This document shows positions 4,416-12,631 of a stretch of 32,848 bases of DNA, piece by piece. Source of the stretch: Acidobacteriota bacterium (GTDB lineage: Bacteria; Acidobacteriota; Vicinamibacteria; Vicinamibacterales; 2-12-FULL-66-21); the NCBI GenBank assembly GCA_003222675.1, contig QHWT01000088.1:1-32848 (forward strand), written 5' to 3'. The notes beneath the pieces are model-generated. The model was given only the letters and a program-made list of their open reading frames with translations, did no database searches and was not told the DNA's origin. Every line of letters starts with the position of its first letter. Within the stretch, counting starts at the first letter, position 1. The position numbers and the translations under genes were made by a program.

Positions 4416-4847
4416 TCAGGAGCGGCGGGGAAGCCACTGCACTTCGAGATCTTGCTTTCCTTCGAGCGGCTTTATCTCCGGATCGCCGGTGAGAAGCGTC
4501 GAACGGAACTCGAGTGCCGTGGCCACAGCAAAGGCATCGGCGTATGCGATCGCATGGTTTGCCTTCAACTCGGCAGCACGTCGAACTCTCCGCCGCGTCG
4601 CATCCTTCACTGAAACGGGAAGCGTACCGCGCACCGCCATCCGCCACAGCGACTCCGCGGCCTCGCGCCGCTCGACTCGAACCAGACGGGAGTACGCTTC
4701 ACCCAGATCGATGATGGACGTGACGCATTCGGCGCGACCGCCTTCAGCTTCATCGAGCCAGCGCTGAACGGCCGCTGCGCCCGGTTCGTCCTGCAGCCAC
4801 GCCAGCCATGCAAATGCATCAAGACAGATCCTAGCGCTTCGCCTCAC
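4416..4847 (-). CDS. vapC: VapC-like PIN-domain toxin
   Basis: This PIN-domain ribonuclease of about 143 residues is probably the toxin of a type II pair; VapC toxins cleave tRNA or rRNA. The first acidic residue is in ICLDAFAWLAWL, Glu follows in the helix SIIDLGEAYSRL, and the third acidic site is in AIAYADAFAVATAL with the closing strand STLLTGDPEIKPLE. The GTG at 4847 is preferred: it overlaps the antitoxin TGA as GTGA, the usual coupling; a TTG at 4862 would add five residues. All active-site acids are present, so the toxin looks intact. The neighbouring antitoxin gene may be frameshifted (see that entry). Confidence 0.88.
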   Translation of the reverse strand: MRRSARICLDAFAWLAWLQDEPGAAAVQRWLDEAEGGRAECVTSIIDLGEAYSRLVRVERREAAESLWRMAVRGTLPVSVKDATRRRVRRAAELKANHAIAYADAFAVATALEFRSTLLTGDPEIKPLEGKQDLEVQWLPRRS

Positions 4848-5026
4848 GCCGGTGCTCCGCAAGATGCTGCTTCAGCCGAAGTCCCTCCTCGCGTTATGGG
4901 CGACAGAACCAAGCCCGCGTCGGTGTCCTCCACCTGAAGGCGCATGCCAGCCGTCAGTCGGTGCTTGTCTCGGAGATGGCGCGGTATGACGACCTGACCT
5001 TTGGAAGAGACCGTCGTCGTCGGCAT
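4844..5026 (-). CDS. vapB: AbrB/MazE-type (SpoVT-AbrB) antitoxin, C-terminus possibly frameshifted
   Basis: The 60-residue frame opens with the swapped-hairpin signature TTTVSSKGQVVIPRHLRDKH followed by LTAGMRLQVEDTDAGLVLSPI, a SpoVT-AbrB DNA-binding domain. It should repress its own operon and bind the PIN toxin through its C-terminal tail. The tail is odd: the annotated frame ends RGGTSAEAASCGAPA with A/T-ending codons. One base over, the same DNA reads EEGLRLKQHLAEHRREAKR and stops at 4831-4833, with G/C-ending codons and a charged helix expected of an antitoxin tail. A one-base insertion near 4890-4895 would explain this. However, the existing stop forms a neat GTGA overlap with vapC, so both readings remain possible. 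Confidence 0.8.
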   Translation of the reverse strand: MPTTTVSSKGQVVIPRHLRDKHRLTAGMRLQVEDTDAGLVLSPITRGGTSAEAASCGAPA

Positions 5027-5415: not shown

Positions 5416-5590
5416 CGACACCGATGTGGTGATGTCGTCGGCGTCATGGCACGTGTCAATGAGCTGCGATACGCACAATGAAATCGCGATACTCGGGCCT
5501 CGGGTTGAACGGAGGCAGTTCAACGATCGCGTTTCAGCCGCGGCGGCTCACGATCTTACCGCGACGTGTGTCCATCCCATTGGGACGGAA

Positions 5591-5614
5591 ACGGCCGGCG
5601 CTGCCGCCGGCCGT
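5591..5614 (-). terminator. Strong hairpin after the phosphoesterase gene
   Basis: Fifteen bases past the phosphoesterase stop, ACGGCCGGCG, a 4-base loop and CGCCGGCCGT form a perfect 10-bp stem. On the minus strand it is followed by TTTCC, so the T-run is short. A rho-independent or stem-protecting terminator is likely. Confidence 0.65.
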
Positions 5615-5628
5615 TCGTTGGTTATTCA

Positions 5629-7572: not shown

Positions 7573-7788
7573 TCACCTGGAGCGCAGGTCGTGGCGCACA
7601 GCCAACAGCGCGAGCTCGAGCCGGTTGCGAACGTGACACTTCAGGTAGACCATCGAGAGAACGTTCTTGACCGTCTGGACCGACAGCCCGAGCGCGCTTG
7701 CGATCTCGCGATTGGTCTGTCCGGCGAGGACGCCGCGAACGACGTCGCGTTCGCGTGGTGTCAGATCGAAGCGCGGGGTTTTGGCCAT
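7573..7788 (-). CDS. Stand-alone LuxR/GerE-type helix-turn-helix protein
   Basis: This 71-residue protein is almost entirely a LuxR-type (GerE) DNA-binding domain. It opens with DLTPRERDVVRGVLAGQTNR, the recognition helix is in LGLSVQTVKNVLSMVYLK, and it ends with the helix RNRLELALLAV. There is no receiver, PAS or autoinducer domain, and an in-frame TAG upstream limits extension. GerE of Bacillus has the same size and plan, so a solo regulator is credible; a fragment of a larger regulator is the alternative. No good Shine-Dalgarno precedes the ATG. It is transcribed away from the FHA-AAA+ gene across a 296-base gap holding a 21-bp palindrome. Confidence 0.8.
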   Translation of the reverse strand: MAKTPRFDLTPRERDVVRGVLAGQTNREIASALGLSVQTVKNVLSMVYLKCHVRNRLELALLAVRHDLRSR

Positions 7789-7919
7789 CAGGACATCTGC
7801 TCGCTGTCGCGGCTAGCGCTGAGCAAGCGGCGGTCCTGACGCTCGGCAAGCGGGAATGTGCCGAAAGGCGCGTGATTTCGCCTCGAACGGCGCGAGCGTG
7901 CGCGTGATGTCTATCCCTT

Positions 7920-7940
7920 CCGGATAGGATTCCTATCCGG
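7920..7940. promoter_or_regulatory. 21-bp perfect palindrome between divergent regulators
   Basis: CCGGATAGGA, a single T and TCCTATCCGG form 10-base arms without a mismatch. A partial further half-site, CTATCC, lies just to the left at 7911-7916. The palindrome sits 132 bases from the HTH-gene start and 145 from the FHA-gene start. LuxR-type dimers bind dyads of about 20 bp, so the adjacent solo HTH protein is a natural candidate ligand; this is inference. The remaining sequence from 7789 to 8084 shows no gene and no -24/-12 promoter that I can see. Confidence 0.6.
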
Positions 7941-8084
7941 TGTGGATGCCAGCAGCGGCGTCCGCTGAGCTGTCGTCTTCCGCATTGACCTTGCCGTCGC
8001 GCCTCAAATCGGCAAGAATTTTCGAGGATACGCTGCCTCTCGCGGGTCACCGAGATTCACCTGGCGAGCTGGTCACGGGCTCGC

Positions 8085-9953
8085 ATGACTTCAGGCGAAA
8101 CACACCCGGCAGAAGGACCTCGTCTCATCGCGATCGCCGGACCGCTGTGCGGCGAGGTGACGCGCTTGAATGGTGCCGAGCTCACCATCGGCCGCGATCC
8201 CTCCAACGTGATGTGCCTGGCAGACCTGTTGCTGTCACGCCGTCACTGCGTGATCACGATCACGCCTGTCCCGCGCGTCCGCGACGTCGGGAGCTCGAAC
8301 GGCACGTTCGTCAACGGCATGCAGATCACCGATCACCCGTTGTCCGACGGTGATCGGCTGCAGGTCGGCGAGTCCGTGTTCGTGTTTGTCGCCAAGGCGC
8401 TCAGGCGTGGCGACATGCCCGTCACGCTCACGCGCGAAGAGCCGGGACCATCGACTACGAAGCTTCGTCTCGACGACGCGCGTTATCTGCAGTGCGAGCT
8501 CACCGGTGTGCCGCAGGTCACCGGACGTACGGAACAGGCGCTGCAGGCGCTTCTCAAGATTAGCGCCGCGCTGAATGCCGCGGGTGCGGAAGAAGAAATC
8601 CAGCGGCTGCTCGTCGATCTGCTCGCCGAAGCGATCCCGGCGGAGCAGATAGCGATCCTCGCCGCCGGCGGTGGTGAATCACCGATCGTGGTGCAGGCGC
8701 ACCCGTCGGGGGGCTCGGCGCAGATCGAGATGAGCGGCACCGTGCTACGGCAGGTCGTCGACGAGCGGGTCGGCGTGCTCACACGCGAGGCGCCAGCCAC
8801 GCTGTGCGTGCCGATCGCCCGACGCAACCGCGTGCTGGGCATCATCTATCTCGCATCGCGTCAGCCGGACGCGTTCGACGACGAGCACCTGGAGCTGGTC
8901 GCCGGCATCGCGGGAGTGGCAGCGACGGCACTTGAAAACGCGCGTCGCGTCGCGTGGCTCGAGAGCGAGACCGAGCGGCTGCACTCCGCGCTCGTCGTCG
9001 AACACACCCTCGTAGGACGAAGCCAGAAGATGGCGAAGATCTACGAGCTGGTTGGGAAGGTCGCGCGCGCCGACGTAACGGTGCTCATCACCGGCGAGAC
9101 GGGCACCGGCAAGGAGCTCATCGCGCGCGCGATTCACGTGAACAGTGGCCGTGCGAAGCGTCCGTTCGTCGCGATCAACTGCGCTGCGTTGACCGAAACG
9201 CTGCTCGAGTCGGAGTTGTTCGGTCACGAGCGAGGCGCATTCACGAACGCCGTGGCCCTCAAGAAAGGCAAGCTTGAAGTCGCGAACGGCGGCACGGTGT
9301 TTCTCGACGAGGTAGGCGAGCTCGCGCCGTCGCTGCAAAGCAAGCTGCTGCGCGTCCTCCAGGAGCACGAGTTCGAGCGTGTCGGTGGTACCCGCACGAT
9401 TCCGATCGACGTGCGCATCGTCTCCGCCACCAATTGTGTGCTGCCGGAGGAGGTGGCCGCGCGCAGGTTCCGCGAGGACCTCTACCATCGGCTCAACGTC
9501 GTCGCCATTCACACGCCGCCGTTGCGCGAGCGCCGGGACGACATCCCGCTGCTGGCAAACCATTTCGCATTGCGGTTCGCGCCGAAGGCGAATCGACACC
9601 TGCTCGGTATCTCAGACCGAGCGATGCGATACCTGGTGCAGTACGACTGGCCGGGGAACGTGCGCGAGCTTCAGAACGCTATCGAGCGCGCCGTCGTGCT
9701 CGGCTCGTCCGACGAGATCGTGCCCGAGGACCTGCCGGAATCGCTGCTCGAAACGCCGCCGGCGCCAGCGGGCGGCGCGTCGACCCTGCACGACGCCGTG
9801 CGCGAGACGAAGGTCTGCGCGATTCGCGACGCCTTCCGGCAGGCTCGCCGCAGCTATACGGACGCCGCGCGCCTGCTCGGCGTCCATCCGAATTACCTTC
9901 ATCGATTGATCAAGAACCTCGGGCTGAAGGCATCGCTCGAAAACGAGTCGTGA
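8085..9953 (+). CDS. FHA-GAF-AAA+ sigma54-type transcriptional activator
   Basis: The 622-residue protein has four parts. The N-terminal FHA domain (~12-103) shows GRDPSN (36-41), SRRH (51-54) and SSNGTFVNG (70-78), the phosphothreonine-binding loops. A GAF domain follows (~155-290). The AAA+ domain (~310-540) has Walker A GETGTGKE (337-344), Walker B with DE at 408-409, and WPGNVRELQ (522-530). A Fis-type HTH closes it (~575-612). The sigma54-contact loop reads GAFTNA (384-389) instead of GAFTGA, so sigma54 contact may be altered. It probably senses a phosphothreonine protein plus a GAF ligand and activates transcription. Its TGA overlaps the kinase ATG, which makes that kinase the obvious phosphorylation partner (inference). 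Confidence 0.93.
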
Positions 9954-12631
9954 TGGCACTGGCGCCGGGTGCGCGGCTCGGCCCCTATACGGTTCGTGCC
10001 CTTGTTGGAAGCGGCGGCATGGGCGAGGTCTACTGTGCGCACGACCCGCGGCTCGGACGCGATGTCGCGCTGAAGGTGATTGGATCGGCCCTGGGCACGG
10101 ATACGGAGATGCGGCGGCGCTTCGATGAAGAAGCGCGGCTTGCGGCGAGCCTCGATCATCCGCGCATCTGCGCCGTCTACGACATCGGCCACGACGCCGA
10201 CGTGGATTACCTCGTGATGGAGTTCCTCGAGGGAGAGACGCTGGCCACGCGGCTGGTCCGCGGGCCCATCCCGATGCCCGATCTGGTCGGCTACGCGATC
10301 GAGATCGCGTCAGCGCTCGCATATGCCCACGCGCGGCATGTGGTGCACCGCGACATCAAGCCCGGAAACATCTTTCTCACCGCGAGGGGTGTCAAGGTCG
10401 TGGACTTCGGCCTCGCCAAGCTTCGTCAGCTCGAACAGAGGCCCTCTCAGGACGTCGCCCGTCTGAACACGCGGAAGCTGCCTGCTATCGAGCGAGGCAT
10501 TGTTCATGGCACTCCGGAATACATGCCTCCGGAACGGCTCGAGGGGCAGGAGGAGGACCATCGTGGCGACATCTTCGCGTTCGGCGTCGTTCTCTACGAG
10601 ATGGCGACGGCACGACGCGCGTTCGAGGGGTCCACACCGGCCGCGCTGATCAGCGCGATCCTTTCGGCGGAGCCGGCGCCGATGGTCGGCCACGGCATCG
10701 CCACTTCGGACGTCGAATGGCTGGTGTGCCGGTGCCTGAAGAAGAATCCCGACGCACGATGGCAATCAATGAGCGACGTCGAAGGCGTTCTGAAATGGAT
10801 TGCATCTTCCGCGCGACCGCGAGGTAAAGCAGGCGCGCCGCGCCGACATTTGCACGCCGTACGGTATTTCACCGCGGCGGCTGGTACCGCGGCACTTGTG
10901 CTCGCGCTGGTGTCGTTCCTGCCTCCACGCGCACGCGGGGGATCGGGTGAACAGGCGCGTGTCGTTGCCGTGACCGTACCGCCACCCGGAGACGGCCGCT
11001 TCACGCTGACCGACGCCTCGTCGAGGAGCGCCCAGCTCGCGGTTTCGCCGGACGGGCGCATGCTGGCGTTCGTCGCGAGCGGCGCCGATCGCGTGTCGCA
11101 GATCTGGATTCGGCAGATGGACTCGGCCGTTCCTCGTCCCCTGAGCGGTACGGCGAACGCGACCTATCCGTTCTGGGCGCCGAACAGCCGCTCGCTCGGC
11201 TTCTTCGCGGACCGGCAGCTCCGGCGCATCGATCTCGACGGAGGGCCGGCGCGCGTTCTGGCGGACGCGCCGAATGGCCGCGGCGGAACCTGGAATGGCG
11301 ACAATGTCATCCTGTTCGCGCCGCTCTCGGCTGGTACCATCTCCCGAGTCAACGCGGATGGCACTGGGGTCGCTGAGCAGACGTCGCTTGCATCGGGCGA
11401 CGTCTCACATCGCTGGCCGCAGTTCCTGGCGGACGGGCGTCATTTCCTGTATTTCGTGAGGAATCCGCAGCAGGGCACCGATGGCGTCTACCTCGCGCAC
11501 CTCGACACTCGCGGCGCGACGCTGCTGGTCACATCGAGTTTCACGGGCATCTACGCGGCGCCCGATCGCGTGTTGTACGTAGCGGACGGCACGTTGATGG
11601 CCCGAACGCTCGATCTCGCGCACGGCCGTCTCACTGGCGAGCCCGTGCCCGTCGTTACGGACGTCGGTGGCTCGAGCAATTTCTACGGCGCGTTTTCGGC
11701 GTCGGCCAACGGCGTGCTGGCGTACGCGCGGAACGCGTCCGCTGCGGAGCTCGCATGGGTCGATCGTGAAGGCCGAACGCTGGGGATCGCGGCGGGCCGC
11801 GCCGGATACGTCGACTTCCAGCTCTCGCGGAACGGCCGCTTCCTCGCGATGGGACAGGTGGAACCGCACACCGACCACCCTGATATTCACGTGCTCGATC
11901 TGGAACGCGGCAACATCAGCCGCATCACGTCGACCCGCGAAACGGACGCCTCGCCGGTATGGTCGCCCGACGCGACGCGCCTCGTGTTTCGCTCCAATCG
12001 CGCGCGCGTGCACGATCTCTATGTTGTTGCTCCGAATTTGTCCGGCACCGACCAGCTGTTGCTGAGGACGGACGCGGCAAAGTATCCGACCGACTGGACC
12101 GCCGACGGACGGCTCGTCGTCTACCACACTGATACGCAGCCGATGAACTGGGACATCTGGGCCGCCCCAGTCGACCGGCATGGCGAGCCGATTCCGCTGG
12201 TGCACACGCGCGACGACGAAGTGCAGGGGCGCGTGTCACGCGACGGAAGATGGCTCGCATATACGTGGTTCACGTCAGCCGACAAGCCGGAGGTCTACGC
12301 GACGGCGCTCGGCGGCGACGGGGCGCGCGTGGAAATCTCCGTCAACGGCGGGTCGGACCCGCATTGGAGCGCCGACGGTCGGGAGCTGTTCTACATCGCG
12401 CCAGACGGCATGCTTGTGTCCGTCGCGGTGCACGCGACGGGAGAGCTGAATCCGGGGAAGCCCACGCCGCTATTCCGGATCCCGGGCATGCGCGTGGCAC
12501 CGCCGTACGCGAGCCGCTACGACGTCGATCCCACAGGGCAGCGGTTTCTCGTCCTCATGCCGCTGGACGATCCGCAGACGCTGCCGCTGAACGTGCTGGT
12601 GAACTGGAGCCCGCAGTCGACGTCACGTTGA
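9953..12631 (+). CDS. Ser/Thr protein kinase with C-terminal TolB-like (PD40) propeller
   Basis: The protein is 892 residues. The ATG at 9953 overlaps the activator's TGA (TGATG); the frame is open upstream to 9434, but that part is a shadow. The kinase domain (~11-283) has the Gly loop GSGGMGEVY (19-27), catalytic Lys41 in [13 protein letters not shown] (132-139), DFG (151-153) and [12 protein letters not shown] (185-196), so it looks active. One TM helix lies at ~305-325 ([16 protein letters not shown]). The outer part is a six-bladed TolB/PD40-type propeller with repeats such as [27 protein letters not shown] and [14 protein letters not shown]. This is a Pkn-type receptor kinase: propeller outside, kinase inside. 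The likely substrate is the cotranslated FHA activator; the external signal is unknown. Confidence 0.94.

Follow-up and report, generated by a model that had tools for sequence, protein, structure and literature searches.

The perfect palindrome at positions 7920–7940 of the window, by which we mean the whole 32,848-nucleotide stretch of Acidobacteriota DNA analysed here, is a real and conserved regulatory site. Comparison of sites and proteins across the phylum suggests that it is very probably the core of an upstream activating sequence (enhancer) bound by the FHA-GAF-AAA+ sigma-54 activator encoded at 8085–9953. The palindrome belongs to an array of alternating CTATCC and GGATAG half-sites, and this array was assigned to the activator because it tracks the recognition helix of the activator and because no good homologue of the divergent LuxR-type protein was found in 19 array loci of other genomes. 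The features concerned are as follows.

7573–7788, minus strand: gene for a 71-residue GerE/LuxR-type HTH protein, a possible target gene (Pfam, homology search)
7823–7837, minus strand: weak −24/−12 candidate AGGACCGCCGCTTGC, directed toward the LuxR-type gene (p 0.22, no better than chance)
7911–7916, plus strand: half-site CTATCC, left of the palindrome (sequence, conserved arrangement)
7920–7940, no strand: core of the array, a perfect palindrome (sequence)
7922–7927, plus strand: half-site GGATAG (sequence, conserved arrangement)
7933–7938, plus strand: half-site CTATCC (sequence, conserved arrangement)
7944–7949, plus strand: weak fourth half-site GGATGC, in phase, with 4 of 6 letters (sequence, position by analogy with four-half-site arrays)
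8085–9953, plus strand: gene for the FHA-GAF-AAA+ sigma-54 activator, 622 residues, the proposed binder of the array (Pfam, orthologues, HTH analyses)
9234–9251, plus strand: codons of GAFTNA, the sigma-54-contacting loop (sequence comparison of 24 proteins)
9885–9908, plus strand: codons of HPNYLHRL, the predicted recognition helix of the Fis-type HTH (sequence, model)
9953–12631, plus strand: gene for a Ser/Thr kinase with PD40 repeats (Pfam)

The palindrome, CCGGATAGGA-T-TCCTATCCGG, spans 21 bp with ten-base arms around one base and is present exactly as given in the original prediction, as are the extra CTATCC just to its left and its place between the LuxR-type and FHA-AAA+ genes. Such a dyad had also been held to be very unlikely by chance. 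This is so for the 296-bp intergenic stretch taken alone, where 12 of 5000 dinucleotide shuffles held a perfect dyad (arms of at least 10, spacer 0–1), but not for the whole window, where 93 of 400 shuffles did; with spacers of up to 3 allowed, a dyad was present in 21 of 60 shuffled windows. The palindrome is therefore notable by its place and not against the size of the window, and the significance of the site comes from its extension into the array and from its conservation. In the window the array reads CTATCC-N5-GGATAG-N5-CTATCC followed by the degenerate fourth half-site and, because all of the spacers are 5, the half-sites begin every 11 bp. The genome-wide scan for such dyads that had been proposed returned a single exact copy of the palindrome in the 7.16-Mb assembly, the one in the window, while near-matches with up to two mismatches, by which a regulon in the window genome might be recognized, were no more frequent than for a reversed control (88 versus 84). 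Three places in this genome differ from the dyad by one mismatch; by sequence none is part of an array, and two of them sit 3 kb apart on one contig.

Eleven loci from other Acidobacteriota (L039–L049), found among the best 80 matches, matched the activator over nearly its whole length at 44–59 % identity, and alternating half-sites recurred upstream of several of these orthologues. For 20 orthologues, some of them added to this first set, the array was scored in the 350 bp preceding the gene, and at least 15 of the 18 letters of the three-half-site array were taken as positive; L040 and L203, on contigs without upstream DNA, were omitted from the count. It was found that the array was kept before 12 of the 14 orthologues with the helix HPNYLHRL, none of 200 shuffles being as good in each case, and before none of the six with other helices. 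The expectation that the dyad would be conserved upstream of orthologous genes is thus borne out for the activator gene. These 12 positives represent about five lineages and are therefore not independent. The two HPNYLHRL orthologues lacking the array, L046 and L047, are short forms whose alignment does not include the GAF region. Among 66 other sigma-54 activators, which include one (L050) that the activator also matched, at 36 % along most of its length, and from which three of an initial 69 loci were left out for too little upstream DNA, the array was absent in every case and none scored above 12 of 18 letters.

The spacers of the arrays outside the window are mostly 4-5-4, compared with 5-5-5 in the window. 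The orthologue of the same genus, in the congener G001, starts at the start of its contig, so that there is no upstream DNA to compare. Upstream repeats of other types were read by eye in two loci with other helices: TTATC/GATAA repeats before the L044 gene (helix HASNLHRL) and GGATAC-type repeats at L219, on contig C63 of G001, where a second FHA activator with an adjoining kinase has the helix NPTYLHRL.

Profile and structural comparisons both liken the activator's C-terminal domain to a Fis-type HTH. A family profile of the C-terminus, which takes in part of the AAA+ lid besides this domain, matched structures of ZraR, NifA and the NtrC family. The model of the domain (mean pLDDT 75) begins with a long helix and continues into an HTH, on which the DNA-binding domains of NtrC4 and NtrC1 superpose at about 1 Å over 42–48 residues with Foldseek E-values above 0.001. 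The Pfam Fis-family HTH_8 was above cut-off in three of five relatives tested and below it in the window protein. The AAA+ domain matched PF00158 with an E-value of 1.1e-69 and has both Walker A and Walker B, and RpoN is encoded in all seven genomes checked, including that of the window. We infer that the HTH of the activator binds the array in the following way. Dimers of the Fis-type HTH would read the CTATCC/GGATAG half-sites, which recur every 10–11 bp along one helix face, and adjacent dimers may seed the AAA+ ring. The ring would then loop to sigma-54 polymerase at a −24/−12 promoter roughly 90–150 bp away, in most relatives probably that of the divergent gene. The FHA domain may be controlled by the Ser/Thr kinase, and the activator may also regulate its own gene.

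Candidate sigma-54 promoters were evaluated by comparing the best −24/−12 match at 60–200 bp from each of 17 arrays with matches at random positions of that locus, using the general −24/−12 consensus with weights that we set ourselves. Three loci (L197, L201 and L202) duplicate others (L039, L041 and L042), and one of each pair was used. A match with p ≤ 0.05 was found for 12 of the 17 arrays, several of which belong to mutually close relatives, and in 11 of these 12 it lay at 129–147 bp. The match was not significant for the remaining five, namely the window (0.22), L198 (0.18), L217 (0.57), L200 (0.06) and L237 (0.61). In the window an equal-scoring match also occurs on the plus strand at 8070, which would start inside the activator gene. 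In five genomes that belong to one family (G256, G178, G330, G214 and G077; loci L193–L197), the frames just after the sigma-54 promoter are mutually homologous, and a divergent target gene is therefore likely there. For the window, the divergent LuxR-type gene would by our guess be the likeliest target, read from the weak sigma-54 promoter candidate. On the divergent side of another orthologue (L045:4919-5329, minus strand), at least three short frames end near-identically in MKIKT[NS]TKAGSAVWGG and are perhaps repeated small peptide genes.

The sigma-54-contacting loop was compared in 24 proteins, a set that includes two more distant paralogues. The window activator and that of the congener G001 have GAFTNA, the other 22 have GAFTGA or GSFTGA, and all 24 have kept their Walker motifs intact. 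The same change in NorR, G266N, is described as giving a fully constitutive activator, free of GAF repression, whose ATPase activity is lower but which still forms open complexes (PMC2941729). NorR G266N resembles the window activator as a GAF-regulated type of activator with a GAFTNA loop (PMC2941729) but differs in that GAFTNA is natural in the window activator, where it is known from sequence. Other variants at this position, such as GAFTDA and GAFTHA, are listed for activators of Desulfovibrio that are believed to remain active (PMC4641369). GAFTNA could also mean impaired contact with sigma-54. The comparison therefore suggests for the window genus either a GAF-independent activator or a drifting circuit, and the latter would fit because the window is without a strong sigma-54 promoter.

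These observations bear on the alternative that survives best, according to which the activator binds the array but in the window genus no longer acts through sigma-54, being a plain repressor or autoregulator or part of a decaying circuit. The restriction of GAFTNA to two of 24 proteins, the p of 0.22 for the window promoter and the presence of one site in the genome are consistent with such a loss. However, open complexes still form in NorR with this substitution (PMC2941729), and the window activator has intact Walker motifs, its array is perfectly preserved and RpoN is encoded in the genome, so that this alternative is considered unlikely, though still to be reckoned with.

To place the site in the wider phylum, 396 genomes were scanned. 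The bare 17-bp dyad was present in 31 of them, against 24 with a reversed control, and says little alone because it barely exceeds that control; 9 of its 32 sites, including that of the window, are located in front of the activator gene. A scan with four half-sites (CTATCC-N4-GGATAG-N5-CTATCC-N4-GGATAG, at most three mismatches) gave 16 sites in 12 genomes, and the reversed control was present in none of the 396. Nine of the 16 precede the activator gene, and for two (in G306 and G310) no explanation was found. The window array, with outer spacers of 5 instead of 4, is not caught by this pattern. In G118 there are five arrays; that on contig C72 precedes the activator orthologue of this genome, and the following four are elsewhere.

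Contig C60: before a gene for a 1594-residue protein with DUF5650 repeats and a PKD-like domain
Contig C81: before a gene for an 817-residue protein with PD40 repeats
Contig C171: flanked by two genes, one with a pro-kumamolisin activation domain and the other with only a sub-threshold DUF4394 match
Contig C42: upstream of a gene that matched no Pfam family

Three of these four arrays have a −24/−12 match with a score of at least 24 (p 0.003 for C60, 0.06 for C81 and 0.003 for C171), and the array on C42 has none of that score. Judged from N-termini and domains rather than from a computed prediction, the targets of these arrays are exported-looking. Within the ten genomes of its family, G118 is the only one with arrays. 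The genome G412 has one array, with a −24/−12 match 129 bp away (p 0.004).

In another reading, an unlinked regulator would bind the array and the activator gene would be just one of its targets. The array of the f33 genomes is placed only 35–56 bp ahead of the start of the activator match, a position suited to controlling that gene, and the binding of the array by the activator is itself drawn from sequence comparison. Against this, array and helix go together, half-sites look different by eye where the helix is different, and most arrays pair with sigma-54 promoters, which makes an unlinked regulator improbable.

The original prediction had read the palindrome as a dimer site of the LuxR-type protein. 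The part of this reading that stands is a regulatory dyad for a dimeric regulator, conserved before the orthologues of one gene; binding by the LuxR-type protein is not supported. In its stronger form, the dyad would be an operator through which the 71-residue protein regulates both itself and the FHA activator, as suggested by its place between the two genes and by a size that suits an HTH dimer. The site shares with LuxR-type operators the short palindrome near a GerE-domain gene, but the array is conserved without the LuxR-type gene. A search with the LuxR-type protein of 19 loci from other genomes that carry the array, each 3 to 14 kb long and 16 of them distinct, with both members of duplicate pairs included, gave just three weak fragments, the best with an E-value of 0.004. 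Some LuxR-type HTH was detected at E ≤ 1e-6 in 33 of 60 genomes (59 relatives and the window's own), and no clear orthologue was found in the 59 relatives, the best match outside the window genome being 59 % over 63 residues in a 229-residue frame. The LuxR-type operator was rejected on this ground, since the array is kept in loci without a good LuxR-type homologue, and we regard it as highly improbable. The window genome itself encodes a paralogue of the 71-residue protein (G000:C6:8032-8220, plus strand; 60 % over 63 residues, in a 161-residue frame).

A chance palindrome, for which the equally good dyads in shuffled windows might speak, or a transcription terminator has a negligible probability, as the extended array is conserved and a scan of 7750–8120 found no terminator-like site. 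A scan of the same stretch for sigma-70 promoters found nothing either.

The start of the kinase gene overlaps the stop of the activator gene by one base (TGATG), and in the congener G001 a kinase likewise follows both the activator and the second FHA activator. Kinase-like matches occur elsewhere in the locus in L048 and L049, and no kinase match at E ≤ 1e-10 was found in the other loci of activator orthologues searched, within their limited length. FHA-domain sigma-54 activators linked to Ser/Thr kinases are known from Myxococcus. The window activator resembles these in combining FHA, AAA+ and a putative Fis-type HTH and in the kinase adjoining it in the window and the congener; it differs in also having a GAF domain and in that distant orthologues have no adjacent kinase.

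The array can likewise be set against the upstream activating sequences of the NtrC, NifA and NorR type, using the generally known details of NtrC and NifA sites. These too are short inverted-repeat sites for Fis-type HTHs in multiple copies, at a distance of about 90–150 bp from a −24/−12 promoter. For NorR, three enhancer sites are described in the divergent norR-norVW intergenic region (PMC2941729), which is similar to the several half-sites in a divergent intergenic region here. The differences are the CTATCC/GGATAG sequence and the up to four alternating half-sites 10–11 bp apart. In a literature search covering titles and the openings of abstracts, no description was found of the CTATCC/GGATAG motif or of an FHA activator of Acidobacteriota.

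As a tentative and rather doubtful wider reading, these elements could form an undescribed, phylum-deep circuit of the Acidobacteriota, in which a Ser/Thr kinase would act on an FHA-GAF sigma-54 activator and this on genes for large exported-looking proteins, with half-sites that change with the helix and with GAFTNA naturally fixed in the window genus. The helix and half-site pairs in this reading are HPNYLHRL with CTATCC, HASNLHRL with TTATC/GATAA and NPTYLHRL with GGATAC-type repeats, the last two by eye. If it is correct, the circuit of the window genus would no longer wait for a GAF signal. Apart from this wider reading, the site connects an activator with an FHA domain to genes whose large products look exported, and it offers a testable regulator, site and promoter set for a phylum known largely from metagenome assemblies. 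The GAFTNA loop shows in nature a substitution familiar from mutagenesis of NorR. Orthologues with differing helices and half-sites could also help in reading the DNA code of Fis-type HTHs.

At the DNA level, similarity within the family beyond the window was limited to 33–41-base matches inside the FHA coding part, and the phosphoesterase gene adjoining in the window was present in one of 12 family genomes, the window's own. A perfect inverted repeat with 11-bp arms (AACGGCCGGCG...CGCCGGCCGTT) lies at 5590–5615, just past the end of this phosphoesterase gene. Elsewhere in the window, a PIN-domain gene (4416–4862, minus strand) overlaps a MazE-type antitoxin gene (4844–5026, minus strand), and the two are likely a toxin–antitoxin pair.
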